Source of the DNA: an uncultured Lachnospiraceae bacterium | GTDB lineage: Bacteria > Bacillota > Clostridia > Lachnospirales > Lachnospiraceae | Direction of reading: 5' to 3' | Length of the DNA stretch: 34,603 nt | Assembly (NCBI GenBank): GCA_947626435.1 | Contig: CANQSB010000030.1 | Location: 1 to 34,603 of the forward strand | In this document: positions 12,276 through 27,198 of the stretch, one piece after another | Numbering within the stretch: position 1 is the first letter of the stretch | Layout: every line of letters begins with the position of its first letter | Notes under the pieces: model-generated | Told to the model about the DNA's origin: nothing | Database searches by the model: none | The model's input: the letters and a program-made list of their open reading frames with translations, nothing else | Program-made: the position numbers and the translations under genes

Positions 12276-13568
12276 CTACTTCTTCAACGGACTCTCCCGA
12301 TAAATAATATCCTCCCTAGACGGTCCGTTGCTAATATGCGTTATCGGATAGCCTATATGCTCCTCGATAAACTCCACATACCTGCGGCAATTCTCAGGCA
12401 GCTCCTCATACTTCCTTATGCCGCGTATCTCGCATTTCCAGCCAGGGAGCTTTTCAAATACGGGCTTAGCCTTTTCGAGCTTTGATGTGACGGGAAACTG
12501 TGTCGTGACCTCTCCGTCAATCTCGTAGCCCGTACATACGGGGATTTCATCAAGATAGCCCAGCACGTCAAGCACTGTAAAGCATACATTGGTAGTGCCC
12601 TGCATACGGCAGCCGTACTTTGACGCCACACAGTCAAACCAGCCCATTCTTCTAGGACGTCCCGTAGTCGCGCCGTACTCGCCCCCGTCGCCACCTCTGC
12701 GCCTGAGTTCATCCGCCTCAGTGCCGAAAATTTCAGACACAAACGCGCCTGCGCCGACTGCAGACGAGTATGCCTTGCACACCGTATAAATCTCCTTTAT
12801 CTCATAAGGCGGAAGTCCCGCGCCGATAGCGCCGTATGCCGCCAGTGTAGATGATGATGTAACCATAGGATAAATGCCGTGGTCGGGATCTTTTAGCGTG
12901 CCAAGCTGTCCCTCGAGCAGAATTTCCTTGCCCGCGTTTATGGCGTCATACAGATATGTAGCGACATCGCATACATACGGCTCAATCATATTTCTATACT
13001 CATGCAGAGTGGACAAAAGCTCATCCGTGTCAATGAGCGGCTTGTGGTAAAGATGCTCCAGAATAACATTCTTCTGCTCCGCAACGCGCTTAACCTTATC
13101 CTTTAAAATCTCCTCATCAAAAAGCTCGCTGACCTGAAAACCGATTTTTGCGTATTTATCAGAATAAAACGGCGCTATGCCTGATTTTGTAGAGCCGAAA
13201 GACTTGCCGCCAAGCCTTTCCTCCTCGTACTGGTCAAACAGCACATGATAAGGCATCACTATCTGCGCCCTGTCCGACACAAGGATTTTGGGCATTGGGA
13301 CATTCCTGTCCGTGATTGACTTGATTTCCTTCATAAGCACAGGAATGTTAAGCGCCACGCCATTGCCGATAATGTTTGTCGTATGGCTGTAAAATACGCC
13401 TGACGGAAGCGTGTGCAGCGCAAATTTGCCGTAATTGTTTACTATAGTATGCCCCGCGTTCGCCCCGCCCTGAAAGCGTATGATGATATCCGCCTTCTGT
13501 GCAAGCATATCCGTGATTTTGCCCTTTCCCTCGTCGCCCCAATTAGCTCCTACTACCGCCTTAACCAT
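12276..13568 (-). CDS. purA: Adenylosuccinate synthetase PurA
   Basis: GTP-dependent enzyme, 430 residues, that joins IMP and aspartate to give adenylosuccinate, the first step from IMP to AMP. The GDEGKGK nucleotide loop is at 11-17, followed by QGGANAGHTIV with the catalytic His, and GRPRRMGWFD near residue 300. The preferred start is ATG 13568, because GGAGG lies six to seven bases upstream; the ATG at 13574 directly abuts that site. It has its own promoter at 13652-13680 yet sits right after purB, whose product completes the AMP branch. Length is normal. Confidence 0.97.
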   Translation of the reverse strand: MVKAVVGANWGDEGKGKITDMLAQKADIIIRFQGGANAGHTIVNNYGKFALHTLPSGVFYSHTTNIIGNGVALNIPVLMKEIKSITDRNVPMPKILVSDRAQIVMPYHVLFDQYEEERLGGKSFGSTKSGIAPFYSDKYAKIGFQVSELFDEEILKDKVKRVAEQKNVILEHLYHKPLIDTDELLSTLHEYRNMIEPYVCDVATYLYDAINAGKEILLEGQLGTLKDPDHGIYPMVTSSSTLAAYGAIGAGLPPYEIKEIYTVCKAYSSAVGAGAFVSEIFGTEADELRRRGGDGGEYGATTGRPRRMGWFDCVASKYGCRMQGTTNVCFTVLDVLGYLDEIPVCTGYEIDGEVTTQFPVTSKLEKAKPVFEKLPGWKCEIRGIRKYEELPENCRRYVEFIEEHIGYPITHISNGPSREDIIYRESPLKK

Positions 13569-13651
13569 TGTCATACCTCCGCGTCTTTATATATTTGATG
13601 CAGCTACCTTCCTTCACTTCGTTTCGGTATAAATTATCCACACCGTTTTTT

Positions 13652-13680
13652 ATAATACAACTTTTTTCCCGATATGTAAA
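13652..13680 (-). promoter_or_regulatory. Candidate sigma-A promoter of purA
   Basis: Minus-strand TTTACA (13680-13675), a 17-base spacer and TATTAT (13657-13652), about 85 bp upstream of the purA ATG within the 249 bp purB-purA gap. This suggests purA can be expressed apart from purC-purF-purB. I saw no purine riboswitch or PurR-box match nearby. Confidence 0.65.
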
Positions 13681-13817
13681 CAACAAGAAACACACTTTAT
13701 AAATTTTCTGTAACGGTTCAGCCCTCGGTTTCACTTCCACGCTTGATGCACACAAAATGCCCCAAAGCCGCATTTGGACACTGAACTACTACACTTTTCT
13801 ATTGTCGCAAATAAAAA

Positions 13818-15269
13818 TCATACAGAAATATCGGCTTTAACGCCAAGCTCCGCCTTGTTTGCCTCCAATACGGGTTTGACAACTTTGTTTAAAAAGTTCT
13901 CCACCTGCAGCGGCGCGCGTCCGACATATTTTGAGGGCTCCATTGCCGCCTGAAGCTCCTCGAGTGTCAAATTAAATTCGCTGTCCGCCGCGATAAGCTC
14001 AAGCAGGTTGTTATCCTTGCCCTCAACCTTAACATTTCTCCCCGCTTCCATTGAAAGCTTTCTAATCTTCTCATGCAGCTCCTGACGGTTGCCGCCGTTC
14101 TTTACGGCATCCATCATAATATTCTCTGTCGCCATAAACGGAAGCTCCGCAAGCATATGCTTTCTGATAACCTTATCATATACCACAAGTCCGTCCACAA
14201 CATTTAAGCAGAGGTCAAGTATACCGTCCACTGCAAGAAAGCCCTCGGGGATAGAAAGGCGTTTGTTTGCCGAATCGTCAAGCGTCCTCTCAAACCACTG
14301 TGTAGCTGAGGTTATCGCGGGATTGAGCGCGTCTATCATCACATAGCGCGAAAGCGACGCGATACGCTCAGAGCGCATAGGATTTCGCTTGTATGCCATT
14401 GCTGACGAGCCTATCTGGTTCTTCTCAAACGGTTCTTCCACTTCTTTTAAGTGCTGCAGAAGTCTTATGTCGTTTGACATCTTATGCGCGCTCGCCGCAA
14501 TTCCCGCAAGCACATTTGCCACTCTCGTGTCCACCTTGCGCGAATATGTCTGTCCTGATACGGCATAGCACTCCTCAAAGCCCATTTTTTCGGCAATCAT
14601 GGGATCTATTTTGTCTATCGTCTCATTATCGCCATTGAAAAGCTCGAGAAAGCTTGCCTGTGTGCCTGTCGTACCTTTTGAGCCTAAGAGTTTCAGGCTG
14701 CCTGCCACATACTCCAAATCCTCCAAATCCATGAGGAACTCCTGCAGCCAAAGTGTAGCCCTCTTTCCTACTGTCGTAGGCTGCGCGGGCTGGAAATGCG
14801 TAAACGCAAGCGTAGGCAGATCCTTGTATTTGTCCGCAAAGCGCGCAAGCTCATCAATAACGCTCACAAGCTTTTTATGCACAAGCTTCAGCGCCTCGCG
14901 CATCACAATAATATCCGTGTTGTCGCCGACATAGCATGAGGTAGCCCCAAGATGTATAATGCCCGCCGCCTTCGGACACTGCTGCCCATATGCGTAAACA
15001 TGGCTCATCACGTCATGGCGCACAAGCTTTTCGCGCTCCCTCGCCACATCATAATTTATGTCCTCCGCGTGCGCTTTCAGCTCGTCAATCTGCTCCTGCG
15101 TGATTACGGGCTTTCCGTTTTCGCTGAGTCCCAGCTCCATCTCAGTCTCGGCAAGCGCAATCCAGAGCCGCCTCCAAGTCCTGAATTTCATGTCCTGTGA
15201 AAATATGTACTGCATTTCCTTGCTCGCGTACCGCTCCGAAAGCGGGCTTGTGTACCTGTCTGTGCTCAT
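13818..15269 (-). CDS. purB: Adenylosuccinate lyase PurB
   Basis: Acts twice in purine synthesis: it splits SAICAR to AICAR plus fumarate, and adenylosuccinate to AMP plus fumarate. The 483-residue protein has the fumarase/aspartase-superfamily loop [12 protein letters not shown] at about 287-298, [14 protein letters not shown] around 157-170, and [14 protein letters not shown] with the catalytic His region at about 106-119. At 483 residues it belongs to the longer subgroup resembling animal ADSL, not the ~430-residue B. subtilis type. GAGGTAAAAT precedes the ATG. It lies between purF and purA. Confidence 0.97.
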
Positions 15270-15397
15270 ATTTTACCTCTTTCCATATCAATTTTAAAGA
15301 TTGTGAAATGTATTCCAAACTATCTGAATCATATGCCTGTAAGCCTTAGCAGCGCCTAATGCTGCTTAATCCCTTGAGAAATTTTAACAGATGCTTT

Positions 15398-16846
15398 TTA
15401 CGCATCATACTCGCCGCGTATATCCTCCTTGGGCGGCTCTATCGGGTACTTGCCGTTGAAACACCCCTTGCAGATATTCAGTCCGCCCACCATATCTTCA
15501 AGGCGTGATATGTCCAGATAGGCAAGCGTGTCCGCCCCGATAATTTTCCTTATGTCCTCGACAGTCCTGTTGTAAGCGAAAAGCTGCTCCCTTGCGGGGA
15601 TATCCGTGCCGAAATAGCACGGCCACAAAAATGGCGGCGAGCCTATCCGCACATGAACCTCCCTCGCGCCCGCTTCGCGGAGCATTCTCACTATCCTGTC
15701 TGATGTCGTGCCGCGCACGATTGAGTCGTCTATCATAATAACGCGCTTGTTATCGACCACTTCTTTTAATACATTGAGCTTTACCTTGACGCTTGACTCC
15801 CTGCTGCTCTGCTTGGGCTTTATAAATGTCCTGCCGACATAGCTGTTTTTTACAAAAGCCGTGCCGTATGGTATGCCAGACTGCAGCGAATACCCAAGCG
15901 CGGCGGCATTGCCCGATTCAGGCACGCCAACAACCAAATCAGCCTCCACAGGCGAATCAATCGCAAGAAAACGCCCTGCCTGTATGCGCGAGGAATACAC
16001 ATCCACGCCGTCAATCCTGCTGTCTGGCCTTGCGAAATAAATATACTCAAATACGCATCTTGCCTGCTCATTTTTAGGCAGGACTCTTGTCATATCTGAA
16101 ATAATGCCGCTCTCGGGCGTGATTGTCACAGTCTCACCAGGCAGCACGTCTCTTACAAATTCCGCGCCTATAGTGTCAAGCGCACAGGATTCAGAAGCAA
16201 GTATGTAGCTGTTCTCGCGCTTTCCTATACAGAGCGGTCTAAAGCCGTATGGGTCGCGGGCTCCGATAAGCTTCCGCGGACTCATAACCACAAGCGAATA
16301 CGCTCCCTTTATCTTGTTGCACGCCCTGTTTACTGCCTCCTCGACAGTCTTTGAGTTGAGGCGCTCACGCGCGATATGGTAAGCTATAACCTCAGAATCT
16401 ATAGTCGTCTGGAAAATTGCGCCCGTGTACTCCAAGTCGTGGCGAAGTTCAGCCGCGTTTATAAGGTTTCCGTTGTGCGCAAGCGCAAGCGTGCCCTTTA
16501 CATAATTTAAAACCAACGGCTGCGCATTTTCAAGCGTAGACGCTCCCGCCGTGGAATAACGCACATGACCTACGCCTATGTCACCCTTCATGCTTTCAAG
16601 TCCGTCCTGCGTAAAAACTTCGTTGACAAGCCCCATACCTTTATGCGACAGCACCTTGCGCACGGGACCGTTCGTGTCGCTCACCGCAATGCCGCAGCTT
16701 TCCTGCCCTCTGTGCTGCAGCGCAAAAAGCCCGTAATAAATAGTCGATGCCACGTCGTTTCCGTCAAAATCGTAAATGCCGAAAACTCCGCACTCCTCCC
16801 TCAGCCCTGTTTCCGCAAGACAGTCATAAATTTTTTCGTCATACAT
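15398..16846 (-). CDS. purF: Amidophosphoribosyltransferase PurF
   Basis: Commits PRPP to purine synthesis by transferring glutamine amide nitrogen, 482 residues. I chose ATG 16846 (MYDEKIYDCLAETG), with CAGGAGAG upstream; the open frame beyond it is only intergenic repeat. Residues 1-18 would be a propeptide removed to expose the nucleophile Cys19 in EECGVFGIYD. The Ntn glutaminase domain contains GHVRYSTAG. The PRPP-binding motif VIMIDDSIVRGTTS lies in the C-terminal half. Late cysteines near KGCFNGKYP fit the Fe-S-bearing B. subtilis type. Tandem family A hairpin elements fill the gap from purC. Confidence 0.97.
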   Translation of the reverse strand: MYDEKIYDCLAETGLREECGVFGIYDFDGNDVASTIYYGLFALQHRGQESCGIAVSDTNGPVRKVLSHKGMGLVNEVFTQDGLESMKGDIGVGHVRYSTAGASTLENAQPLVLNYVKGTLALAHNGNLINAAELRHDLEYTGAIFQTTIDSEVIAYHIARERLNSKTVEEAVNRACNKIKGAYSLVVMSPRKLIGARDPYGFRPLCIGKRENSYILASESCALDTIGAEFVRDVLPGETVTITPESGIISDMTRVLPKNEQARCVFEYIYFARPDSRIDGVDVYSSRIQAGRFLAIDSPVEADLVVGVPESGNAAALGYSLQSGIPYGTAFVKNSYVGRTFIKPKQSSRESSVKVKLNVLKEVVDNKRVIMIDDSIVRGTTSDRIVRMLREAGAREVHVRIGSPPFLWPCYFGTDIPAREQLFAYNRTVEDIRKIIGADTLAYLDISRLEDMVGGLNICKGCFNGKYPIEPPKEDIRGEYDA

Positions 16847-16902
16847 AACTTTCTCTCCTGTTTTTACCCTATAAAGCCTTAACCCTTGCTCAAATCCTAA
16901 TA

Positions 16903-16984
16903 AAAAACGCTGCCTTTGCGTTTTTCTAAACATTTAGGAAGTCTTAGGCGATGTCCTTTATCGCCTTAGAGTTCCTTAATGTTT
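16903..16984 (-). repeat. Family A two-hairpin element, copy 1 (upstream of purF)
   Basis: The short hairpin has arms 16903-16910 and 16918-16925 (AAAAACGC/GCGTTTTT). It is joined to a 57-bp imperfect palindrome at 16928-16984. Read on the minus strand the short stem comes second and ends in TTTTTTATT, which looks like an intrinsic terminator. The same composite recurs at 17021-17103, 27806-27888 and 28926-29015. Confidence 0.8.
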
Positions 16985-17020
16985 TCCCCTAATTACGTTC
17001 ACGTTCTGCAAAATCATACC

Positions 17021-17103
17021 GAAAAACGCCGACCTTGCGTTTTTCTAAACATTTAGGAAGTCTTAGGCGATGTACTTTATCGCCTTAGAGCTCCTTAATG
17101 TTT
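17021..17103 (-). repeat. Family A two-hairpin element, copy 2 (over the purC stop codon)
   Basis: A perfect 9-bp hairpin (17021-17029 with 17037-17045, GAAAAACGC/GCGTTTTTC) is followed by a 57-bp imperfect palindrome at 17047-17103. The palindrome contains the purC stop codon and encodes its last five residues. Copies 1 and 2 are tandem, 36 bp apart, and nearly identical over the palindrome. Confidence 0.8.
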
Positions 17104-17963
17104 TTTCCCGTGAGAAGCGAATACGCTTCCTTATACTTATCAATAGTCTTCACAACCACATCATCAGGAAGCAGATACCCGCTGTCAGGGTTCGCCTTCA
17201 GCCAGTCCCTCACAAACTGCTTATCAAACGACGGCTGCCCCTTACCCGCCTCATAGCCTTCAAGCGGCCAGAAACGCGAACTGTCAGGCGTAAGCATCTC
17301 ATCGCCAAGAACTACATTCCCATTTTCATCAAGCCCGAACTCAAATTTAGTATCAGCAATTATTATCCCTTTACTCAAAGCATACTCCGCACATTTCTTG
17401 TAAAGCACTATCGTAGCGTCCTTTATCTTCTGCGCATACTCCCGCCCCTTTTCCGGATAAATCTTTTCAAGCGCCTCTACACTCTGCTCAAAAGAAATAT
17501 TCTCATCATGAAGCCCCAGCTCCGCCTTCGTACTCGGCGTGTAAATCGGCTCAGAGAGCTTTTGCGACTCCTGCAAACCCTCCGGAAGCTTTATACCACA
17601 TACCGTACCGTCTTTCTGATAACTCGCCCAGCCACTACCAGTTATGTACCCGCGCACAATACATTCAATAGGAAGCATCTCAAGCTTACGACACATCATA
17701 CTGCTACCCTCAAACCGCTCATTCCTGAAAAATTCCGGCATATCCTTCGTATCAGTCGAAATCATATGATTAGGTATAATATCCCTTGTAAAATCAAACC
17801 AAAATTTGGACATCTGCGTAAGCACAGCGCCCTTCCCCGTAATCTTGTTTTTAAGAATAACATCAAACGCCGATATCCTATCCGTCGCCGCTATTATAAG
17901 GTTCTCCCCTATATCATAAACCTCCCGTACCTTTCCCTCTTTAATCGGTGTAAACTGCTGCAT
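17085..17963 (-). CDS. purC: SAICAR synthetase PurC
   Basis: ATP-dependent ligase, 292 residues, that joins aspartate to CAIR to form SAICAR in purine synthesis. Seen motifs include KEGKVREVYDIG at the N-terminus (ATP loop), ATDRISAFDV, CIVRGYITGSGW, and FEFGLDENGNVVLGDEMLTPDSSRFW. It is of the longer (~290-residue) SAICAR synthetase type, not the ~240-residue form. ATG 17963 follows AAGGAGGAATTAAG. A ~320-nt leader predicted from the 18294-18322 promoter carries two tandem family B hairpins. The last codons (NIKEL and stop) lie inside a family A palindrome. Confidence 0.97.
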   Translation of the reverse strand: MQQFTPIKEGKVREVYDIGENLIIAATDRISAFDVILKNKITGKGAVLTQMSKFWFDFTRDIIPNHMISTDTKDMPEFFRNERFEGSSMMCRKLEMLPIECIVRGYITGSGWASYQKDGTVCGIKLPEGLQESQKLSEPIYTPSTKAELGLHDENISFEQSVEALEKIYPEKGREYAQKIKDATIVLYKKCAEYALSKGIIIADTKFEFGLDENGNVVLGDEMLTPDSSRFWPLEGYEAGKGQPSFDKQFVRDWLKANPDSGYLLPDDVVVKTIDKYKEAYSLLTGKNIKEL

Positions 17964-18002
17964 CTTAATTCCTCCTTTATATTAATAATATTATATAGAT
18001 AC

Positions 18003-18132
18003 TTGCGAAACCCTACTCGATAACATAGAGTTTGTGTGAAATATACAAAATCAGCGACGCTTCGCATCGCGCACCAAGTCGCGTTTTTGTATATTTCACA
18101 CAAACTCGGACAGTTGAGAACACCTTTCGTAA
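18003..18132 (-). repeat. Family B palindromic element, copy 1 (purC leader, proximal)
   Basis: About 130 bp bounded by TTGCGAAA (18003-18010) and TTTCGTAA (18125-18132). It contains perfect 23-bp inverted arms at 18028-18050 and 18085-18107, and an inner GCGAC/GTCGC stem (18054-18058, 18078-18082). Its purC-proximal end is about 40 bases from the ATG. It closely matches the copy at 30641-30771. Confidence 0.85.
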
Positions 18133-18149
18133 TTACTAAGCATTTATTA

Positions 18150-18262
18150 AAAAGTTTCATTCGACAACATAGAATTTAGGCAAAATATATAAAATAAGCG
18201 GCGTCTTGCGCAGCACCTAGCCGCGTTTTTATATATTTTGACTAAATTCGGACAGTTGAAAC
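18150..18262 (-). repeat. Family B palindromic element, copy 2 (purC leader, distal)
   Basis: A diverged tandem copy. The 23-base arms 18172-18194 and 18227-18249 pair with one mismatch, and the inner stem is GCGGC/GCCGC (18198-18202, 18220-18224). At least six positions differ from copy 1 in both arms in a way that keeps pairing. It lacks the clear terminal TTGCGAAA boundary. Confidence 0.8.
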
Positions 18263-18293
18263 ACCCCTGCCCCCTTCACCAACACACTATATT

Positions 18294-18322
18294 ATAATAC
18301 CTTGTCTTCATACATTATGCAA
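18294..18322 (-). promoter_or_regulatory. Candidate promoter of purC
   Basis: Minus-strand TTGCAT (18322-18317), a 17-base spacer and TATTAT (18299-18294, within TATTATAATATAG). It lies between the end of the four-gene cassette and the family B elements, so both hairpins would be in the purC 5' leader. The rest of the 385 bp gap holds nothing else I recognise. Confidence 0.6.
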
Positions 18323-18348
18323 GCCACTTTTCATTATACATCCAAACC

Positions 18349-19536
18349 TCACGCCAACACCTTCTCATACTCCGACACCATATCCACTATACTCCTAGCA
18401 TACTCCGGATACTGCGCCACAATATCCTTCACCTCATCCTGCGCCTCCTGCGCCACCTGCGCATTATACTCCATCTGCTTCCTAAGCTTCTGACGACGCA
18501 AAATAAGATTATGCCGTATCTCAACCATCTCCTTGCTGTCAATAAGCGCCTGCGCCTGATGAATCCATATCACAGGATCCTGTATCTCATGGCGGCGCAA
18601 CAGCTTTATCAGCGAACTCTCGTTAAACTCCATATCCTGCTCCATCTGCTGCTCCTGCTCGCGCGCCATGTTCTCCTGAATATATTTGTCCCAAAGCTTA
18701 TTCAACTCCACCGAACTGTTTACATCATATTTCACATAAAGATACTCAAGCAAATTGGTGTTGTTCACATAGCGAATCTTAACCGTATTCTGCAAAAGTA
18801 CAAGCTTGTTGATCGTCTTTTCCACCTTCACAAGCTCCCTCTGCGAATCGTGGTATTTAACATACATAAGCGTTATCGCAAACGCCGAAACCAGTATCGC
18901 TATCAGATAGCCAAGCTCCACATCAAGCTTTAAGACCGCCCCCAAAATGGCAAGCAGTATCGCAAGAAACACCATCGACGCTACACATATCGTCGTTATA
19001 CCCTTCATATTTCTCTGCGAGTTTATCAGCTCATTCCTGCGGAAATTGTAGGCGTGCCGCTCACCGTCAAGCCTGCCCAAATCCTTTTTTACAAGCACCT
19101 GGTATTCCTCCGCCTTTTTGAGCTTGTCATAGCCCTCGGGCATGTACTGCTCGATGCGCTCCATATGGCTGTATTCCTCATCGCTCATAATCATGCGCTT
19201 TTTTCTCAGGCGTTCCCTGCTGCCCTCTATCTCCACTATCGCCTTGGCATACTTTTTTACCTTTTCCTTTGTCTCTTCCGGAAACGCCTCTATATCCTCC
19301 ATATCCTTAAGATATGATGTAACAAGACTGTATTCGCCGCCAAGCGTATCAAGCTCATTTGACGCCTCCGATATCTGTTCAAGGCAGGCGTTTATATAAT
19401 TTTCGCGCTGTGTCTGGTCGTGCATGTCCACATCCTCGCGCCTCAGACCGGTGTCCTCCCATTCGGGATTGTATTCATCTTCATAAAATTCGTCTTTTTT
19501 CTTAAACAGCCCTTTCAGCCGCCCCAATAAACCCAT
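18349..19536 (-). CDS. Coiled-coil protein with a central two-helix membrane hairpin (unknown function)
   Basis: No family recognised. A 395-residue protein, last of the four-gene cassette. Residues 1-40 are short, charged and probably disordered. About 42-178 is Glu/Lys/Arg-rich helix likely to form coiled coils. Two hydrophobic helices (about 180-202 and 207-227) are separated by only a few polar residues, so both ends should face the cytoplasm. A second long helical region (about 230-390) is rich in Gln/Glu/Met. The layout suits a membrane anchor or scaffold for the cytoplasmic partners encoded upstream. The ATG at 19536 has only a modest GGACGG site, 63 bp after the preceding stop, so translation may be coupled or weak. 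Confidence 0.85.
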   Translation of the reverse strand: MGLLGRLKGLFKKKDEFYEDEYNPEWEDTGLRREDVDMHDQTQRENYINACLEQISEASNELDTLGGEYSLVTSYLKDMEDIEAFPEETKEKVKKYAKAIVEIEGSRERLRKKRMIMSDEEYSHMERIEQYMPEGYDKLKKAEEYQVLVKKDLGRLDGERHAYNFRRNELINSQRNMKGITTICVASMVFLAILLAILGAVLKLDVELGYLIAILVSAFAITLMYVKYHDSQRELVKVEKTINKLVLLQNTVKIRYVNNTNLLEYLYVKYDVNSSVELNKLWDKYIQENMAREQEQQMEQDMEFNESSLIKLLRRHEIQDPVIWIHQAQALIDSKEMVEIRHNLILRRQKLRKQMEYNAQVAQEAQDEVKDIVAQYPEYARSIVDMVSEYEKVLA

Positions 19537-19599
19537 CTATGCGCCGTCCTTTCCGTAAACCATGATACCGCAGGCTCAAGCTTTCAAAAACCAAATGCC

Positions 19600-20433
19600 T
19601 TACAGCTGTGTCTGCCTTTTGTAATCATGCTTTAGCTGCGATATAAGACCTTTTGCCTGCCGGTAATAATTTTCCATGTCGCCGCCCGCCTTGCACTCAT
19701 CAAGCTGCTCCAAACGCGCCCTCTCATTTGAGGTCTGCCACTTCCTGTCAGCCTCCTCACACAGCTTCTCCGCACGCACAAAATCCTCCTCCCAGTCGGG
19801 ATTTTCGCGCCTGAATCCGCCATACGCATAATCCGTCATCGCCTTTTTGGACGCAATTATGTACGCCAGCCTTATCCTGTCGTCAGGATTTATGCAGTAC
19901 GCCTTGTAATAGTAATCCGCCGCAAGCCCATACGCAAAGTCAAGCGCATAGAGCGATGCCATGTTGTAATACATAAGCGCCCTTGCCGCTTTGTTGTTCA
20001 TGGGAATATATTCCGCAAGCTCCGCATATATCACGAGCGCCTGCCGGAAACGCCCCTGCTGGTAAAAATACTCAGCCTGCTTTTTGTACCGCTCCAGCAT
20101 TGTAAGGCTTGACTGCTCCTTTAGTATAACCTCTATCTGCCGTATGGTTTTGTCGTCATACATGCCCGTCTTTTGAAGTATGGTCGTCACAAACGCCGCG
20201 ACGGACACCCTTTTCCTCACATAGACTTCAAGCTCATCCGCAAGCTCGTCAAGCCCGCACTCTTCCCTTATCCATTTGACAAGCTCAGCCGTAACTATCG
20301 AATCGTCAATAAGACGCACCTTATTATAAAAATAATAGCAAAGCTCCTCTATCGAATAGAGATTGACATCCGACAGCTTCACATAATACGGTATTTTTGC
20401 GTAGTTTCCCACGCATAAACATACATTATTCAT
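19600..20433 (-). CDS. TPR-like helical protein (unknown function), third gene of the cassette
   Basis: A 277-residue soluble protein with no named family. Residues 1-110 form a predicted mixed or helical domain starting MNNVCLCVGNYAKIPYYVKL. About 115-190 has at least two TPR-like helix pairs (YKKQAEYFYQQGRFRQALVIYAEL, then AADYYYKAYCINPDD). The C-terminus is highly charged helix (about 215-277). I chose ATG 20433 over the longer open frame because it follows AGGGGGC and starts 26 bp after the upstream stop; the longer frame would overlap that gene. TPR proteins often act as Hsp70 adaptors, and the gene upstream encodes an Hsp70-like ATPase, so an adaptor role is a reasonable inference. Confidence 0.82.
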   Translation of the reverse strand: MNNVCLCVGNYAKIPYYVKLSDVNLYSIEELCYYFYNKVRLIDDSIVTAELVKWIREECGLDELADELEVYVRKRVSVAAFVTTILQKTGMYDDKTIRQIEVILKEQSSLTMLERYKKQAEYFYQQGRFRQALVIYAELAEYIPMNNKAARALMYYNMASLYALDFAYGLAADYYYKAYCINPDDRIRLAYIIASKKAMTDYAYGGFRRENPDWEEDFVRAEKLCEEADRKWQTSNERARLEQLDECKAGGDMENYYRQAKGLISQLKHDYKRQTQL

Positions 20434-20458
20434 TAGAGCCCCCTGTAAATAGCACATG

Positions 20459-21790
20459 TTATGAAATGACCTCGACCGGCAGACATTCGCGCCATAGCTT
20501 TCCCGTTGACGGAAACAGCTCACCAAAGCCTTTGTCCTTTATCTCTATCCACACTGCCTGCGTGTCCTTCATGTAAAACCTGATGCCTATGCGGTTCGTC
20601 TTGTTGCCGCGCACGCTAAGCCCTTCCAGAGAAATATTCGCCACGCGCGTCCTGCTGCCGTCAATCGGCGTTATAGTAAGCGAAAGGGTGTTATTTTTTA
20701 CAAGCATGACATCAAACTCCTTGTCCACATCATACCAGCTCGTGCCCGCGTTCAGTATCGGAAAATATATCTCCTCCTGCCCTTTGTCGCACTTCATTCC
20801 TATATTGGCGCGAAGCTTGTCATCCGAAAGGTAGACATATTCGTTCGAAAGCGTTGACGGCAGAAGCCTCTCGCGCGCACCGTAACACGCCCCCTTGCTG
20901 AAAAGGTTGTTGCCCTGAAACACGCGGCAGCCGCGGCACAGGTATCTAAGCGACTCTCTGCACCAATCCTTTGAAAAGTATCCGCCAAGCAAAAACGCTG
21001 AAGTCACAACGCGCTCCTCACAATACCCCCGCGCCATTTCGAGAAGCCCCGCGTCAAGCCGTTTGTATAGCTTTGCCCTCTCGTCATTTCCCATGCCCGA
21101 AATATTAGGCATCTTCATCTGCGGGAAATCAGCCGTTTCTATAAAACATGCCACAGGATTCGTGTTGCGGTTCATCTGCAGGATATAGCTTCTTATGCCC
21201 GCTTTCGTGTAATCGTACAAAAGCACATCATGTATCCACATTTCCTGCGGCTGGTGTATCATATACTGGAAAAAGCAGTCCTCGCGGCTCATGAAATAAA
21301 GCTCCGCCTTTTTGGGCGGAATATTTTCCATGGCGGACCTTATCGCCTGCATAAGCGCGGGACGCATCTCGTCCATCGTAAAGGCGATTGCGCCTATGTC
21401 CTCCTGGCGTATATGGGCCGACAGCAGTGAAAGCGTCTTCCTTATATATGTTTCAAGAAGCTCGCCCGCGTCGTACTCGTCATCGCCGATACGCACCTTT
21501 TCTTTTTTTTCCGCAAGCCCGACGAAATTATCAGCAAGCTGCCCTTTGCCGTCCTTCACGCTTTGAGCCGCGTCGCCGCCGATAAGCCAGCTTGCGCGTC
21601 CGTCGCTTTCAAGCCGCCTGCTCAAAAGTACGGGTATGTCATATTGCTCCTCGCCCATCACCATGCTGAATGTGTCGGGTACGCTCTGGTCCGCGCGGCA
21701 GTAGCTTATCTGCGCATAAACCTGCCCCAGTTCAAACCCAATTACCACCTTATTGCGTTTTGAAAATTCGTCGATTTTATCAATAAACAT
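20459..21790 (-). CDS. Hsp70/actin-fold ATPase-like protein (DUF5716-like)
   Basis: A 443-residue protein with the Hsp70/actin architecture readable in sequence. Numbered from the alternative upstream start: phosphate-1 loop VVIGFELGQVYAQ (about 19-31), phosphate-2-like VLLYDYTKAGI (about 193-203), adenosine-motif SAFLLGGYFSKDW (268-280), and a SKGACYGA segment (302-309) like the AxGAA of Hsp70. The last ~90 residues resemble a minimal Hsp70 substrate-binding beta domain (SLEGLSVRG, then IGIRFYMKD and a terminal STGK), with no helical lid. I recall similar Lachnospiraceae proteins labelled DUF5716. The start is uncertain: ATG 21790, or TTG 21799/21802 nearer the GGGAG site. It lies 26 bp after the giant gene. 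Confidence 0.85.
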   Translation of the reverse strand: MFIDKIDEFSKRNKVVIGFELGQVYAQISYCRADQSVPDTFSMVMGEEQYDIPVLLSRRLESDGRASWLIGGDAAQSVKDGKGQLADNFVGLAEKKEKVRIGDDEYDAGELLETYIRKTLSLLSAHIRQEDIGAIAFTMDEMRPALMQAIRSAMENIPPKKAELYFMSREDCFFQYMIHQPQEMWIHDVLLYDYTKAGIRSYILQMNRNTNPVACFIETADFPQMKMPNISGMGNDERAKLYKRLDAGLLEMARGYCEERVVTSAFLLGGYFSKDWCRESLRYLCRGCRVFQGNNLFSKGACYGARERLLPSTLSNEYVYLSDDKLRANIGMKCDKGQEEIYFPILNAGTSWYDVDKEFDVMLVKNNTLSLTITPIDGSRTRVANISLEGLSVRGNKTNRIGIRFYMKDTQAVWIEIKDKGFGELFPSTGKLWRECLPVEVIS

Positions 21791-21816
21791 TATTAGCAAC
21801 AATCTCCCGTTTCCGC

Positions 21817-24800
21817 CTAATTAAGCACCTTAAAAAGCTCCCGCGCGCAGAAGTCCTGATAAAGGTATTCTTCCGTAAGCCTTTCCGCCGTCGCCGCATC
21901 CTGCATTTCCGCGCTCACCATTATGTCGTTCAGCACTGCAAACCTGCTGTAGCCGCCTGCGTCATCCTGCGCATCGCCAAGCAGCGTGTCGCTCTGAGTG
22001 ATATGCTCTCCCTGCTCTCCATCGGCATTCGTAAAGCTCTCCGTAATATAATACTGCAGCGCCTCGCCATGGAAAAGCTGAAATATACTGACATAAATGC
22101 CGTCGTACATCTCACGCATTTCCTGAACCTCATAGCTTTCCGCAGGCTTGTCGCCCTTTTCGGCATCCCCGGAATCCCCTCCTGCGCCGTCATACGCAAA
22201 ATGTATATGCACCCTGCTTCCCTGCGCGCTCTTGTACTCCACGAAAATGGCGTTTCTGAAATAATGCAGCTCAGGCACTGTATCGGCGAGCTTTGCGTAA
22301 AATGGAAAGTACCTGTCCTCGCGCAGAAGCTCCGCCGTTATCGCCCTCAATGCCCTGATGTCGAGCCTCTGCAGATATTGCTCTGATTCCGCGGCACGCT
22401 TCAATATCGCAAGCTTATATACCTTGTCCACCGCCGCCCCTGACGCATACGCCTCATACAGCCTGTCAAAAATCCCATCATCCACAATCGCGTCATAGAC
22501 AAAATATTCATACGCCGCGCTTTTGAACAGCCTGTCGGCAAGCTCCGCGTCATAGCCGTCATATTCGGTGTACGCCAACAGGATTGCGTCCCTGTCCTGA
22601 AAGCTTACGCCGGTATAATCAATCTGCATAAGCATACGGTACATTATATCCCGAGTGTCAAGCTCCAGCTCCACTGCAGCGCGCCACAAACCCTTTAGCT
22701 CTGAAAGCCTGCCGCAGTAATGCCGCATTAAATAACAGAGGATATTTTCATCATAACGCATGTTTTTATATACATAATATGCCGCTGCTACAAGAAATTC
22801 CTCGTAATCAAACTCTCTCATGACTATGCGCTTGCTCACAAGCCTTGCCAGCGTCTTAATGTTGACTTGCGCAAATCCGTACTGCCTAATCCAACTATAC
22901 GCCTTTTCAAACATCCCGCGCGACACAAAATAGCGTATGACCTCCGCCCTTTCCTGCGCCTGCATTGCACCCGCCTCAATATCCTCAAGAAACGCGTCAA
23001 GCTCGCCTATCCTGTCATTGTCATAGTAAAAGCGCATAAGCTTTGTGCGTATGTCCTTTTTGAAATCCTCCATCACCTGCTCGGACTCCGCAAGGCTTTT
23101 GAACCTCTGGAAATTGTCCTCCGTAATGGCGATATAGTTTTTGTCAAGCTCGCACAAATATATGTCAAAGCTAAGGCGTCCCTCCAAATGCCTGCTCACA
23201 TACGATACCAGCTTGTCCGTATTCATAAGCTGCTTGTTTTCATAGCTTATGCTTTGGGTAAAGCGCCTGCCCTCGCCGTCCTGCAGAAACAGCTTATACT
23301 CGCTGCCGTAGATAGGCAGCATGCACACATTATTAATCACCGGGTATGCGCTCTCGCCGCTCAGCTTTTCATGTATGACCGCCACGCTCTTCACCCGCTC
23401 ACTGTCAATATACAGCCTGTGCATAAACAAAAGAGGTGTAAACGCATACGCCATGTCATCGGCAACCATATGCGGCGTGACAACATTTTGGTACAGATAC
23501 GCTATATTTTCATTTATGCGCCCTGCCTTTATCGAATCGAGCACAAACCTCTCGATTGCTATGCGGTAGCTCTGTTCCAAATCAGGGTATTTATCGGCGT
23601 TTTTTATGACATACGCGTACAAAAAGGCATTCAGTTCGTAATCGAGCGTGCTCTGGTACGCAAAATACATAAGCACCATGCGCGGTATCTCTATGTCCTT
23701 ATCCATTATCTCCCCGTATTTGTCGAGCTCAAGCGACATCATATAATACTCGTAAAGCTTTGTCACCCGCACCGAATACTCGACGCCAAGCGCATACCAT
23801 CCAAAATATTCCGCGCCCTTTTTGTCACCCATTATGAGAAGACTGCAAATCGCCGCAACCGTCTGGGGCGACTTGCCCAAATCATACGCCTCGCACAGAA
23901 TACGGTACAGCAGCGGCGAATATTCCTTTTTGCGCGCCGCGATATACTGCAGCTGTTCTATCAGGTTGGCATCCAAAACGCCATTCCTCGCCCCATGCCA
24001 AAGCACATTTTCCTCAAAAGCATCGAGCTTCAGCAAAAATGTAGGGTTGTCGCGCAGCAAAAGCATAGCCTCGCACATTATCACAGGGCTTGCGCAGCCC
24101 GCCTTAAAAAGCGTCTCCATAAACTGCCATTTGTACTCGCTGCGCCTTGCAAAGTTTTCATCCAAATCCATCAGAAACCATGCGATTTTCCACTGAGCCA
24201 AATTATTCGCATATGCGTTTTCAATAATGCCGAGAACCTCCTGTATATAATCCTCGTCGCGGTTATACAGAGTGGTAAGGTAAAGATAATAGCAATATTC
24301 CACAGACTCCCTGCCCGCCTCATACGCGGACTGCCGCACATTATCGAGCAACCACTTAGCTTCATTAAAGCGTTCTTTTTCTATCAGGAGCTGTACCTGC
24401 AAAAGCCCTGTGAGGGGATTGTCCTCGTCAAGGTCCCTCAGCGCTTCTATATCATGTGTTATTTCACCAATCAGCGTTTCATGTGAGTACTTGCCATAAC
24501 GCATGTCTATGTAATGACGCGTAAGACTAAGCTGGATTTGTTTTTTCTGCCTTTCTATATCGTGGCGCTCGCTCGTCTTCTCCATCATTATGCTTACAGG
24601 AATAATATAGTCCCTGCTTGCGCTCGCGAAAACAATACGCCCGCTATTTAATCCTTTATGAAGAAGCGTGGCATCTATCTCAACCTTAAAATCACATATG
24701 TTATTATCAAAAGAGCTGTCGTCCAAAAACTCGAATGACGGCTTTATAAAATCGCCGTCGCTGTACACGCGCAGATATGTATAGCCCCAGCTATCACATG

Positions 24801-25395
24801 TTATTTTTATGCTGCGCCAAGTATTCAACTGTATTTCTTCAAGCATGATGCTTTCTGTGTCAAAGCTGTAGGTAACAGGTGCTTTTTTATTCACCTCGAC
24901 GAGAAACTCGTCGACATTCTGCTGATTGCCATGGATGCGCGACAATCCCATATATGAAAGGCGGGCATTTTTGTCATTTTTATTCAATATGGTGATAAAT
25001 TCAGGTCTGTAAAAAAGCTCTACTGCCTCGGTCCATTCCGCCTTGGCAAGGTTGGTAAAGTGAAACAGGTTTTTGATGCCCCCGAGCGAACTTTGGAGAA
25101 AAGGCTTTTGGACGCTGACAGCGTAAGGTATGGCATACTCTCCGTAATTGCTTATGATGGAAAGTTCGCCTGATACGGTATCGCCAGCTTCGGCATTTGA
25201 CAAGTCAAAAAAATACTGCACTTCAAAGTCTTGTCCTTTAAACCTGTTTTCCGGCACTCTTATTCTTGTATCGGAAGAATATATCTCACCTTCCGCATAT
25301 CTGTCAGAGGCATGGATGAAAAAGCTGCCTTCTATCAGTTCTTGCGGTTTTGCGGCGATTTCAATATTCTCACAGGAAAATTCCAGATAGCCCAT
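21817..25395 (-). CDS. Giant beta-sandwich plus helical-repeat protein (DUF5717-like), first gene of the cassette
   Basis: A 1192-residue protein of unknown function, resembling Lachnospiraceae proteins I recall as DUF5717. ATG 25395 (MGYLEFSCENIEIAAKP) is preferred, with AGGAG seven bases upstream. Residues about 1-105 and 155-285 look like two Ig-like beta-sandwiches. About 290-1040 is almost all amphipathic helix with Tyr-rich helix-turn-helix repeats, like a large TPR/solenoid scaffold. About 1050-1150 returns to beta structure with an acidic Gly/Asp insertion, followed by a final helix. There is no signal peptide or membrane segment, so it is cytoplasmic. It is expressed first from its own promoter (25428-25456). 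Confidence 0.85.
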   Translation of the reverse strand: MGYLEFSCENIEIAAKPQELIEGSFFIHASDRYAEGEIYSSDTRIRVPENRFKGQDFEVQYFFDLSNAEAGDTVSGELSIISNYGEYAIPYAVSVQKPFLQSSLGGIKNLFHFTNLAKAEWTEAVELFYRPEFITILNKNDKNARLSYMGLSRIHGNQQNVDEFLVEVNKKAPVTYSFDTESIMLEEIQLNTWRSIKITCDSWGYTYLRVYSDGDFIKPSFEFLDDSSFDNNICDFKVEIDATLLHKGLNSGRIVFASASRDYIIPVSIMMEKTSERHDIERQKKQIQLSLTRHYIDMRYGKYSHETLIGEITHDIEALRDLDEDNPLTGLLQVQLLIEKERFNEAKWLLDNVRQSAYEAGRESVEYCYYLYLTTLYNRDEDYIQEVLGIIENAYANNLAQWKIAWFLMDLDENFARRSEYKWQFMETLFKAGCASPVIMCEAMLLLRDNPTFLLKLDAFEENVLWHGARNGVLDANLIEQLQYIAARKKEYSPLLYRILCEAYDLGKSPQTVAAICSLLIMGDKKGAEYFGWYALGVEYSVRVTKLYEYYMMSLELDKYGEIMDKDIEIPRMVLMYFAYQSTLDYELNAFLYAYVIKNADKYPDLEQSYRIAIERFVLDSIKAGRINENIAYLYQNVVTPHMVADDMAYAFTPLLFMHRLYIDSERVKSVAVIHEKLSGESAYPVINNVCMLPIYGSEYKLFLQDGEGRRFTQSISYENKQLMNTDKLVSYVSRHLEGRLSFDIYLCELDKNYIAITEDNFQRFKSLAESEQVMEDFKKDIRTKLMRFYYDNDRIGELDAFLEDIEAGAMQAQERAEVIRYFVSRGMFEKAYSWIRQYGFAQVNIKTLARLVSKRIVMREFDYEEFLVAAAYYVYKNMRYDENILCYLMRHYCGRLSELKGLWRAAVELELDTRDIMYRMLMQIDYTGVSFQDRDAILLAYTEYDGYDAELADRLFKSAAYEYFVYDAIVDDGIFDRLYEAYASGAAVDKVYKLAILKRAAESEQYLQRLDIRALRAITAELLREDRYFPFYAKLADTVPELHYFRNAIFVEYKSAQGSRVHIHFAYDGAGGDSGDAEKGDKPAESYEVQEMREMYDGIYVSIFQLFHGEALQYYITESFTNADGEQGEHITQSDTLLGDAQDDAGGYSRFAVLNDIMVSAEMQDAATAERLTEEYLYQDFCARELFKVLN

Positions 25396-25427
25396 TACTT
25401 TACTCCTAAAAAATATCATTATTTTTT

Positions 25428-25456
25428 AGTATATCAAATTTTTGGGTGTAAGACAA
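25428..25456 (-). promoter_or_regulatory. Sigma-A-like promoter of the four-gene cassette
   Basis: Minus-strand TTGTCT (25456-25451), exactly 17 bases, then TATACT (25433-25428). The gap to the ATG at 25395 is about 32 bases with AGGAG inside. It sits just after the family C hairpin that follows ilvE, so the cassette is probably an independent operon. Confidence 0.7.
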
Positions 25457-25475
25457 TAAGGAAAATACAGAAAGA

Positions 25476-25556
25476 CATACACCCCACTCGGGCCTGCCTT
25501 CGCTCATGGGAAGCATAGCCGCACTATGCTTCCAAACGGTCTTCGTGGGGTGTATG
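25476..25556 (-). repeat. Family C palindromic element, copy 2 (after ilvE), possible terminator
   Basis: The outer stem is CATACACCCCAC (25476-25487) with GTGGGGTGTATG (25545-25556). The nested perfect 10-bp stem is 25509-25518 with 25524-25533 (loop CCGCA). The right end GGTCTTCgTGGGG then TATGA matches copy 1 at 2746-2941, and the left CCCAcTCggGCcTG region is related too. On the minus strand it begins nine bases past the ilvE stop and is followed by a T-rich stretch, so it may end ilvE transcription. Confidence 0.7.
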
Positions 25557-25564
25557 ATTATAGA

Positions 25565-26587
25565 TTATATCTCTACTATCCAGCCTTTTGGAGCCTCCAA
25601 GCGTCCCATCTGGATGCCTGTGAGGGTATCGTAAAGCTTCTGTGTGGTGGAACCCATTTTTTCCATGCCTGAGGGGAAGCAGATTTCCGCGCCCTTATTT
25701 ACGATTTTGCCAACGGGTGATATTACTGCCGCCGTACCGCAGAGCCCACATTCAGCAAAATCCTTTACCTCATCAAAGAGCACTTCTCTTTCCTCTACCT
25801 CTAAGCCAAGATAATCCTTAGCCACTACCATAAGCGAGCGCCTCGTGATTGACGGGAGGATGCTGTTTGACTTAGGCGTAACTATCTTGTTGTCCTTTGT
25901 CACGAACAGGAAGTTTGCGCCGCCTGTCTCCTCTACCTTTGTGCGCGTGGCGGGGTCAAGATACATATTCTCGTCAAAGCCTTCATTGTGCGCCGTCACT
26001 ATCGCGTGAAGGCTCATGGCATAATTTAAGCCTGCCTTGATATGTCCTGTGCCGTTTGGCGCGGCGCGGTCAAAATCGCTCACCTTTATCGTAAGAGGCT
26101 TGGCGCCGCCCTTGAAATAAGGTCCTACGGGCGTACAGAAAATTCTGAACTGGTACTCGTCCGCCGGCTTTACGCCGATGACGGGATTAGAGCCGAACAT
26201 GTACGGTCTCACATAGAGCGTAGCGCCCGAACCGTAAGGTGGAACATATGCCTCGTTTGCCTTTACCACCTTTTTTACCGCCTCTACGAAGCGTCCGTCG
26301 GGAAGGGCGGGCATTTCAAGGCGCAGGCAACTGTCATGAAGGCGCTGCTCATTTAAGTCGGGGCGGAACACTACCGTCTTGCCGTCCTGCGTCGTGTAAG
26401 CCTTCAAGCCCTCAAAGCAGGTCTGAGCATACTGCAGGACGCCCGCGCACTCGTTTATGACAATGTTCGCGTCCTCTGTAAGACAGCCTTCGTCCCAAGC
26501 GCCGTCTTTATAATTGCTGACATACCTTTTGTCAGTCTGTCTGTAGCCGAAGCCCAGACTTGACCAGTCAAGATTTTTCTTTTCCAT
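25565..26587 (-). CDS. ilvE: Branched-chain amino acid aminotransferase IlvE
   Basis: PLP enzyme, 340 residues, that makes or degrades leucine, isoleucine and valine by exchanging the amino group with 2-oxoglutarate. The PLP lysine is Lys184 in GHIKAGLNYA. The substrate loops LQYAQTCFEGLKAY (about 51-64) and YVRPYMFGSNP (125-135) are present, and the C-terminus has VEETGGANFLF and ECGLCGTAAVISPVG. Length and motifs match the ~340-residue class (type II, like eukaryotic BCAT) and not the ~300-residue E. coli class. GAAAGGGAG precedes the ATG. It is single, with its own promoter and a small GTACAG/CTGTAC leader hairpin (26635-26656). Confidence 0.96.
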   Translation of the reverse strand: MEKKNLDWSSLGFGYRQTDKRYVSNYKDGAWDEGCLTEDANIVINECAGVLQYAQTCFEGLKAYTTQDGKTVVFRPDLNEQRLHDSCLRLEMPALPDGRFVEAVKKVVKANEAYVPPYGSGATLYVRPYMFGSNPVIGVKPADEYQFRIFCTPVGPYFKGGAKPLTIKVSDFDRAAPNGTGHIKAGLNYAMSLHAIVTAHNEGFDENMYLDPATRTKVEETGGANFLFVTKDNKIVTPKSNSILPSITRRSLMVVAKDYLGLEVEEREVLFDEVKDFAECGLCGTAAVISPVGKIVNKGAEICFPSGMEKMGSTTQKLYDTLTGIQMGRLEAPKGWIVEI

Positions 26588-26787: not shown

Positions 26788-27198
26788 TTACTTTATACTC
26801 AGGATTGCCTTCACATCCTTATCTGTCAAGCCTGTTTTTTCATTGACTACATAAAGGTTCTTAATGCCGTTATATAAGGATTTATCATCGTCTAAAATTA
26901 TATACTCCGATACGCCTCTGCTATTGGCGTAATCTTCTATCTCCTTTTGTCTGTCGTCTAAATCTTTTGTCCTTCCCAGTATTTCTATATGCTTGTCTTG
27001 AAATTCGTCCAGTAATTTCTTAACTTGGGGCGTACACATGCCGTAATTATGAAAATACCCAAAACGCCAGGTTGATATTAACACTATTTTTGCTTTTGTT
27101 TTATTACAAATCCTTCCAAGCCTGGCTACACATTCCTTGTCTATGTGCCACTCCTGTAATTGGTTTAATACGCCGTCTATATCAAGAAATATTACCAT
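26788..27198 (-). CDS. Small HAD-superfamily phosphatase-like protein (SAK RNA-repair HAD type)
   Basis: A 136-residue protein with the HAD motif I FLDIDGVLN (Asp6, Asp8), motif II-like Ser/Thr in LISTWRFG (about 40-47), and an acidic motif ILDDDKSLY near residue 100. This compact form matches the HAD domain found in 'Swiss Army Knife' RNA-repair proteins (Pfam HAD_SAK), here standing alone. The family suggests hydrolysis of a terminal phosphate on RNA or nucleotides; the true substrate is unknown. The ATG at 27198 lies 27 bp after the folA stop with GAGGCGG upstream, so it is probably co-transcribed with thyA-folA. Confidence 0.82.
   Translation of the reverse strand: MVIFLDIDGVLNQLQEWHIDKECVARLGRICNKTKAKIVLISTWRFGYFHNYGMCTPQVKKLLDEFQDKHIEILGRTKDLDDRQKEIEDYANSRGVSEYIILDDDKSLYNGIKNLYVVNEKTGLTDKDVKAILSIK

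Follow-up and report, generated by a model that had tools for sequence, protein, structure and literature searches.

The Hsp70-type protein Ssz1 binds ATP but hydrolyses little or none of it, lacks the alpha-helical part of the substrate-binding domain (SBD-alpha) and forms a stable complex with its partner, as set out in the accessible text of PMC8476630. In the available parts of Kaur et al. 2020 (PMC7159879), the GAP1-N2 theme comprises an HSP70, a GrpE, a second HSP70 without the peptide-binding domain, and FNIII domains fused to DnaJ or to tetratricopeptide repeats (TPR), and the CoCoNuT protein CnuD is presented, in the accessible sections of PMC11090510, as carrying Hsp70-like domains with degenerate motifs and predicted RNA binding. 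Here, we analyse a four-gene operon (genes A to D, positions 18349-25395, all on the minus strand) in a stretch of 34,603 nucleotides, referred to throughout as the window, from an uncultured Lachnospiraceae bacterium (assembly GCA_947626435.1, contig CANQSB010000030.1). By score, genes A and B belong to the Pfam families DUF5717 (PF18984 and PF18983) and DUF5716 (PF18980), to which Pfam assigns no function, in agreement with the labels mentioned in a preliminary description of the locus. Our results suggest that the operon probably encodes a family-wide cytoplasmic scaffold complex, which would be organized around a non-cycling, Ssz1-like pseudo-Hsp70 and would have been reduced from a larger chaperone machine.

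Gene B (20459-21790, minus strand; 443 residues from an ATG, with an alternative TTG start 12 bases upstream) matches PF18980 with an E-value of 3.9e-95 (318.6 bits against a cut-off of 34.7), and the copy in the window is not recognized by the Hsp70 family PF00012. In a profile comparison with hhalign, 116 B proteins aligned to 17 Hsp70s with a probability of 95.6 (E = 1.2e-8), residues 18-432 of B falling on DnaK 2-472 over 391 columns, while ten column-shuffled control profiles gave probabilities of 0.1-0.2. The match runs co-linearly with DnaK through the nucleotide-binding domain (NBD) and the beta part of the substrate-binding domain (SBD-beta) and ends, in the alignment as in the predicted model, before the alpha-helical lid. 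The NBD is shortened in the IIB region (about residues 231-265 of B versus 228-305 of DnaK, which we take to delimit that region). AlphaFold2, supplied with 59 sequences, predicted B with a local confidence score (pLDDT) of 90.5 and a predicted template-modelling score (pTM) of 0.88, and a Foldseek search of the PDB with this model returned as its best match 5obv, a DnaK without SBD-alpha (4.6e-18). Among the first 50 rows, 48 are titled Hsp70s or Hsp70-holding complexes, including chains of ribosome-associated complexes (6sr6, 5mb9 and 7x3k) that are probably Ssz1, judging by their length; the other two are ciliary central-pair chains that the row leaves unnamed. TM-scores were modest (0.40-0.53 by query) and root-mean-square deviations large, so that the domain placement predicted for B is close to no listed state. 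Few columns are conserved among the 116 proteins (G22, G273, G304-A305 and D423-x-G425-F-G427, numbered from the TTG start), and a PDB sequence search with A and B gave nothing credible. Taken together, the hhalign, AlphaFold2 and Foldseek results provide good support for assigning B to the Hsp70 superfamily by predicted fold, as the preliminary description had proposed. We considered and dropped the idea that B is an actin-like filament ATPase of the MreB or FtsA type with A as its cross-linker: Hsp70 and MreB have a common nucleotide-binding fold, and the Hsp70s of the expanded gene set described below also match PF06723 (8.2e-8 to 1.6e-18), but the presence of an SBD-beta co-linear with that of DnaK and the overwhelming share of Hsp70 titles among the Foldseek rows make it very improbable.

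The catalytic motifs of B depart from those of DnaK-type proteins. The position of the first Asp is occupied by Asp in 97 and by Glu in 16 of the 116 proteins, the window copy having Glu, and the residues that follow are not GTT; at the phosphate-2 Asp position, Asp occurs in 60 and Glu in 17 of 116. Neither the lysine of the KR motif (DnaK K70) nor the GGGT loop is kept in the first 45 of the 116 rows. B thus does not conserve the phosphate and lysine motifs (DLGTT, K70 and GGGT..D) that characterize canonical DnaK-type proteins, apart from the acidic residue at the first position, and has no alpha-helical lid. Since the lysine and GGGT are lost across the B family, the label of ATPase previously given to this protein becomes doubtful. 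Judging from the motifs, nucleotide binding by B is possible and normal ATP hydrolysis unlikely.

In the mammalian gut, Lachnospiraceae rank with the most abundant bacterial groups. We surveyed 120 genomes of this family, one per genus; like all surveys reported here, this is a sample of the available genomes. A single PF18980 match is present in 117 of them (98 of the 101 genomes of good quality). Two of the three genomes without a match (G029 and G091) also lack A, and in the third (G098) A lies at a contig end, so B may lie off that contig. Of 291 genomes drawn from across the class, the ten that belong to the family all have PF18980 and the 281 others do not. Gene order was followed in 121 family loci (the window plus 120 fetched loci, 116 from the family survey and four from the class-wide draw), in which A, C and D were sought by means of profiles derived from their copies in the window; after exclusion of fused, open-ended and short (<75%) proteins, the alignments, window included, held 116 B, 108 A, 113 C and 54 D. 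Gene A is the same-strand neighbour of B in 117 of the 121 loci, with a largest gap of 363 bases; three loci without it (L067, L129, where the locus lies at a contig start, and L102) come from genomes carrying A on another contig, and one (L142, from a genome 67% complete) lacks both A and C. Gene C, also missing from L095, stands beside B in 119 of 121 loci. These include four (L118, L136, L146 and L149) in which B and C are fused as one open frame, with B N-terminal and C C-terminal, which argues for one complex, in line with the single machine imagined earlier.

The distribution of gene D is different. It was found in 54 of the 121 loci and genome-wide in 53 of the 120 genomes at E <1e-89, with weak matches in two more; some of the misses may be caused by contig ends. 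Set against the near-universal A, B and C, this identifies D as an accessory part, and the proposal that the assembly is membrane-tethered as a general feature does not hold. When D served as bait, the order A-B-C-D was seen in 75 of 75 contigs holding all four genes and all four genes in 68 of 68 contigs with more than 6.5 kb before D, these contigs being the best 80 of 532 confirmed relatives (74 labelled Lachnospiraceae and one Roseburia). The four genes are therefore neighbours in related genomes. Ratios of nonsynonymous to synonymous substitution rates (dN/dS) of 0.067-0.124 for the four genes, obtained against two relatives (L201 and L202; 76-95% amino acid identity), indicate purifying selection rather than decay; against a third relative (L203), A and C were saturated. 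A mobile or phage origin was considered and rejected, B having no plasmid match (the search was made with B) and the only PHROGs match being phrog_1270 on the D hairpin (1.6e-4).

Gene A (21817-25395, minus strand; 1192 residues, with AGGAG ahead of the ATG) matches PF18984 at 1.3e-275 (917 bits) and PF18983 at 1.8e-72 (244.6 bits), against a cut-off of 25. AlphaFold2 (pLDDT 86.4, pTM 0.57) predicts an immunoglobulin (Ig)-like beta domain at residues 1-108, helices at 110-167, a second Ig-like beta domain at 173-272, a helical solenoid at 276-656, a beta insert at 658-722, a further solenoid stretch at 726-1046, a beta domain at 1050-1139 and C-terminal helices, the designation Ig-like resting on the strand pattern and on Foldseek matches to Ig modules. 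The Ig-plus-helical scaffold of the preliminary description is thus borne out by the model. The window copy of C (19600-20433, minus strand; 277 residues) has no Pfam match above cut-off, TPR included; TPR_2 matches 23 of 36 C relatives (E up to 0.01), so that the earlier TPR assignment stands for the protein family and not for this copy. D (18349-19536, minus strand; 395 residues) is of coiled-coil type, judged by eye, and bears out the predicted membrane hairpin with two adjacent hydrophobic segments (19-residue windows from about residues 176 and 195). No Pfam family matches it above cut-off, and 36 relatives gave scattered weak membrane matches, among them DUF2207_C in eight (best 1.4e-4). 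The possibility that D is a SLATT effector was set aside, a single NCBIfam match (E = 0.042) lying below cut-off.

Outside the family, related genes belong to a larger gene set, a relation that the preliminary description overlooked and that is new here. Among 146 genomes of the order, which we take to be Lachnospirales, PF18984 occurs in 15 of 15 family members and in 60 of the 131 others (with G512 below cut-off), where it is often split into an Ig gene of ~400 residues and a solenoid gene of ~900 residues or forms one protein of ~1300 residues. The expanded order reads Ig, solenoid, Hsp70 (H1), coiled-coil-GrpE (X), degenerate Hsp70 (H2), Hsp70 (H3), Hsp70-VWA (H4), TPR and, in some cases, the hairpin protein. 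In 20 hand-picked expanded regions, A is present as two genes in 15, H1 (~559 residues) follows the solenoid gene in all 20, and X (560-645 residues if complete, 279 in L176) comes next in 18, the sequences of L177 and L181 ending there. Where the sequence continues, H2 was found in 16 loci, H3 in 15 and H4 in eight usable ones; the C profile matches in seven of the 20 regions at E <1e-10, and also in L199. Among the seven genomes followed past C, D is present in L176, L179, L196 and L198 and not in L197, L199 or L200. As a separate observation, five expanded loci (L178, L180, L182, L183 and L188) have, ahead of the Ig gene, a related protein of 331-482 residues for which one to three hydrophobic segments are predicted.

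Domain assignments in one expanded locus (L179) illustrate the composition: H1 matches HSP70 (1.8e-77); X matches GrpE at its C-terminal end (1.4e-14), as it does in L187 (1.4e-8) and L176 (5.4e-12); H2 matches DUF5716_C (1.8e-25) and HSP70 (1.9e-16); H3 matches HSP70 (2.5e-57) and DUF5716_C (1.2e-10); H4 matches HSP70 (2.5e-95) and VWA_4 (1.3e-10); and the TPR protein, the counterpart of C, matches TPR_2 (2.2e-21). On a DnaK profile of 579 positions, H1 to H4 end at median positions 467-480, versus 577 for a DnaK-type set, so none has a recognizable lid. The DnaK lysine, GGGT and phosphate-1 Asp are each conserved at 100% in H1 (20 proteins), H3 (15) and H4 (8). In H2 (16 proteins), the lysine and most of GGGT are lost, with the first Asp kept in 93% (88% in 45 of the 116 B proteins). 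In H4 of L179 (12517-14676), L185 and L195, the VWA domain sits where an Hsp70 lid would be and shows a variant metal site, D-x-T-G-S, a search for DxSxS in these proteins having found none.

Strong X matches (E <=4.1e-34) occur in 60 of the 131 non-family genomes and in none of the 15 family genomes; of 69 matching genomes, nine were set aside because their matches were weak (E 1.6e-8 or worse), and two family genomes have weak X matches, to the GrpE end. Among the 131, A is present in 60, X in 60 and both in 58, while PF18980 matches 56 (51 above cut-off), in what may be either H2 or H3. A, X and PF18980 occur together in 53 of these genomes, any of them in 62 and none in 69.

This inventory calls to mind a conflict or defence module akin to the GAP1-N2 systems (PMC7159879), with which the expanded set has similar parts: a beta-sandwich protein, TPR, several Hsp70s, GrpE, VWA and a protein with two transmembrane segments. 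We regard this explanation as improbable. No GTPase or GAP1 match was found in A to D or in nine scanned proteins of L179, L187 and L176 (against a Pfam release whose content of GAP1 models was unchecked), nearly every family genome has the system, in one copy (117 of 120), B has no plasmid match, and PADLOC returned no match for A to D or X. In the same PADLOC scan, which covered H1 and H4 and not H2 or H3, H1 (4e-5) and H4 (1.7e-6) match the candidate PDC-M61B over part of the NBD. The window itself encodes a YchF-like GTPase at 10119-11216, away from the operon.

Several lines of evidence identify B as the family counterpart of the degenerate H2. A profile of family B proteins (36 rows) matches H2 of L179 with a probability of 99.9 (E = 4.6e-32), and both proteins end in D-x-GFGE-x-FP. 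In an IQ-TREE phylogeny of 75 rows (14 B and at most 12 each of H1, H2 and H3), B forms one group (100/98) that joins H2 of L176 with support of 100/100; B and H2 together are set apart from H1, H3, H4 and DnaK by a branch at 100/100. The relationship is well supported. A search of the 121 family loci, within the stretches fetched around the operon, revealed neither X nor any gene of the H1, H3 or H4 type: the H3 profile matches B itself in 69 of them, and the two other proteins matched are an MreB (L056; PF06723, 2e-142) and a stand-alone VWA protein (L084). The latter (15288-16628; 446 residues, VWA_4 3.9e-9) lies in the operon's fetched stretch, perhaps as a partner or by chance. In the window's own genome, PF00012 matches DnaK as well as two open frames, 338 and 343 residues long, that are MreB-like by size. 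Extra Hsp70s exist in the window's genus; those of L166-L169 group in the tree with DnaK and not with H1, H3 or H4, and were rejected as counterparts of these genes (that of L170 and further ones were left unplaced). In two of these genomes (L167 and L168), an extra Hsp70 of 556 residues lies near an open reading frame of 466-469 residues whose start looks J-domain-like by eye.

The contrast within the expanded set also bears on whether B could be an ordinary ATP-cycling Hsp70 for membrane-associated clients, which would rely on the host's own DnaJ and GrpE, have C for a co-chaperone and be tethered by D. NBD and SBD-beta are both present in B, an acidic residue is kept at the first Asp position (113 of 116), and a Glu is found near DnaK E171 in 97 of 116 B proteins, two columns off in the motif-comparison alignment, all of which speak for such a chaperone. 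Yet lysine 70 and GGGT are lost in B and H2 and kept in the neighbouring H1, H3 and H4, the lid is absent, the NBD is short at IIB, the window copy falls below PF00012 detection, and the putative tether D was not found in 67 of 120 genomes, so that we consider this explanation unlikely.

In the genomes sampled, the system does not extend beyond one order. In the class-wide draw, PF18984 has one match outside the order, below cut-off, in 278 genomes. For X, the matches outside the order are all short and of GrpE type (best 4.5e-10). The solenoid of the expanded form (A6), searched in 279 genomes of the phylum, retrieves family A in four (best E-values 2.2e-54 to 3.9e-99) and otherwise a single match at 2.4e-4. 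Flanking genes link the two forms. The commonest upstream neighbour in the family, found in 37 of 121 loci and mostly divergent, is a gene of 367 residues encoding an aminotransferase of class I/II (typed in L178), relatives of which lie near the Ig gene in 12 of the 20 expanded loci; of these, five were compared and all five match the 37. Downstream, 33 of the 121 family loci have a valyl-tRNA synthetase gene (typed in L198) within five genes; in L176, D is followed by a class I synthetase, and in L196 and L198 by open reading frames of 880 residues. These common neighbours support one ancestral locus.

The synthetase also prompts the thought of an adaptor directed at RNA or the ribosome, in which a non-hydrolysing Hsp70 would work at ribosomes or on RNA, as is proposed for CnuD and known for Ssz1. 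The degenerate motifs and predicted RNA binding of CnuD (accessible sections of PMC11090510) and the lidless, barely hydrolysing and ribosome-located Ssz1 (accessible text of PMC8476630) are in keeping with such a role. However, Pfam finds no RNA-binding domain, synteny with a synthetase is weak evidence, and a membrane protein is added in about half of the genomes; we hold this role to be rather doubtful.

Our preferred reading remains that of a scaffold around a pseudo-Hsp70. Under it, B would have no Hsp70 ATP cycle, as it has no lid, phosphate-2 glycine loop, catalytic lysine or exchange factor in the operon, and would be held in one conformation, perhaps nucleotide-bound, as a stable docking partner in the manner of eukaryotic Ssz1. 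C, the TPR-family protein, would bind B directly, B would also dock A, and A, with its Ig domains and long solenoid, would be the arm holding a client or a larger assembly, which D, where it occurs (about half of the genomes), would anchor to the membrane. The expanded relatives would use this scaffold for a genuine ATP cycle, driven by X and three active Hsp70s. As to history, we lean towards a scenario in which a dedicated chaperone machine arose within an order of Clostridia, comprising four Hsp70-type proteins without lids (one a pseudo-enzyme and one fused to a VWA domain), a GrpE joined to a long coiled coil, a TPR protein, an Ig-solenoid and a hairpin, and in which the family dropped the active Hsp70s and the exchange factor while keeping the pseudo-Hsp70 core as a single-copy complex found in nearly all its genomes. 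That B was kept with A and C and the other Hsp70s were not suggests that the scaffold is what matters in the family. If so, the locus represents a natural experiment on the indispensable part of an Hsp70 machine, three active Hsp70s and GrpE being dispensable and the pseudo-Hsp70 with its scaffold not, and a bacterial pseudo-chaperone in which something other than ATP cycling is indispensable. DUF5717 and DUF5716 would then become a testable complex, the original biochemistry of which is predicted by the expanded set.

Several observations weigh against parts of this reading. The retained acidic residues of B, at the first Asp position and near E171, leave room for weak hydrolysis, and the alignment of B with DnaK is loose around the lysine. 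The Foldseek matches of A are generic (Ctr9, Ski3, ciliary central-pair proteins and receptor Ig domains; best E = 6.0e-7, with low TM-scores). Long branches lead to B and H2 in the tree, where H2 is also paraphyletic, and the software cautions that such joins may be false. We chose the 20 expanded regions by hand from 60 genomes and followed only seven past C, and the search of family genomes for H1, H3 and H4 types elsewhere was limited to PF00012 in seven genomes of one genus. Nor does the expanded set form a single operon in every genome: of the 58 genomes with both A and X, 17 have them on separate contigs (a hand count that includes contig breaks or splits), and in G478 the two are ~42 kb apart on one contig. 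Finally, the proposed direction of change draws on the distribution within a single order, in which 69 of 131 non-family genomes lack the system, which would also allow expansion, or loss elsewhere.

In the window, the four genes are co-oriented and closely spaced as first described, with gaps of 26, 25 and 63 bases between A, B, C and D (measured from the ATG starts). The single promoter proposed ahead of gene A is present as a promoter-like site at 25456-25428 (minus strand; TTGTCT-17-TATACT) with 9 of 12 consensus positions and a TG preceding the second hexamer. The local stretch holds two such sites versus 0.7 in shuffles and the region 17000-25700 holds 21 versus 14.6 (s.d. 3.8), a background against which the site is weak. 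Among relatives, 32 of 109 loci have a site of at least 10/12 in the 200 bases preceding A, versus 5% in mononucleotide shuffles. The next upstream gene is co-oriented with A in 51 of the 109, at a gap of no more than 42 bases in 22, and the transcription unit may therefore begin earlier there. Heat-shock control by HrcA was rejected as a candidate: no CIRCE-like element was found upstream of A, the best sites agreeing with the consensus at 12 of 18 positions in two of 109 loci. Rfam gave no match above threshold in the window.

The operon is preceded by an aminotransferase class IV gene (25565-26587), beyond which a HAD_SAK_2 protein (26788-27198; PF18143, 2.3e-23) adjoins dihydrofolate reductase and thymidylate synthase genes. 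Downstream lie purine genes (12276-17963) for adenylosuccinate synthetase, a lyase with ADSL_C, a glutamine amidotransferase and SAICAR synthetase; purine-gene-like clusters, with names assigned by eye, neighbour the operon in 16-25 of 121 family loci. Two palindromes with 23-nucleotide arms (18028-18107 and 18172-18249; arms 100% and 96% matched) lie just 3' of gene D and share a 47-nucleotide stretch (81%, spacing 142), as if they were two copies of one element. An 83-nucleotide stretch is repeated where the SAICAR synthetase gene ends (16903-17104; 94%, spacing 119), and a 317-residue open frame antisense to that gene (17070-18023, plus strand), with no Pfam match, is probably a shadow frame.

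We found no description of this gene set in a literature search of 5.39 million papers, made mostly without subscription journals and without bioRxiv, and the names DUF5717 and DUF5716 led to a single occurrence of DUF5716, in the accessible part of an unrelated study. Compared with DnaK/Hsp70 (PF00012), B has the same predicted fold and a co-linear NBD and SBD-beta, but differs in having no alpha lid, a shortened NBD and neither lysine 70 nor GGGT. The GAP1-N2 systems, as far as their accessible description goes, are the nearest published part list that we encountered, in which HSP70, GrpE, a second HSP70 and a beta-sandwich protein carrying TPR or DnaJ are encoded close together; here, by contrast, no GTPase or GAP1 was found, the distribution is core-gene-like, and the expanded form encodes four Hsp70-type proteins without lids as well as a fused GrpE. 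CnuD, in the accessible text, likewise places an Hsp70 NBD and SBD with degenerate motifs beside helical repeats, which indicates that degenerate Hsp70 domains are in use elsewhere too, although CoCoNuT is a McrBC-type restriction system and no McrB- or McrC-type gene was seen here. Ssz1 is eukaryotic and has a J-domain partner, whereas no J-domain match was found among the scanned operon proteins (A to D and nine from L179, L187 and L176) and the partners proposed here are TPR and Ig-solenoid proteins. Like Ssz1, B has SBD-beta without SBD-alpha, and ribosome-associated complex chains are among its Foldseek matches; the further likeness, little or no hydrolysis within a stable partnership, is a trait of Ssz1 in the accessible account and, for B, the role that we propose.

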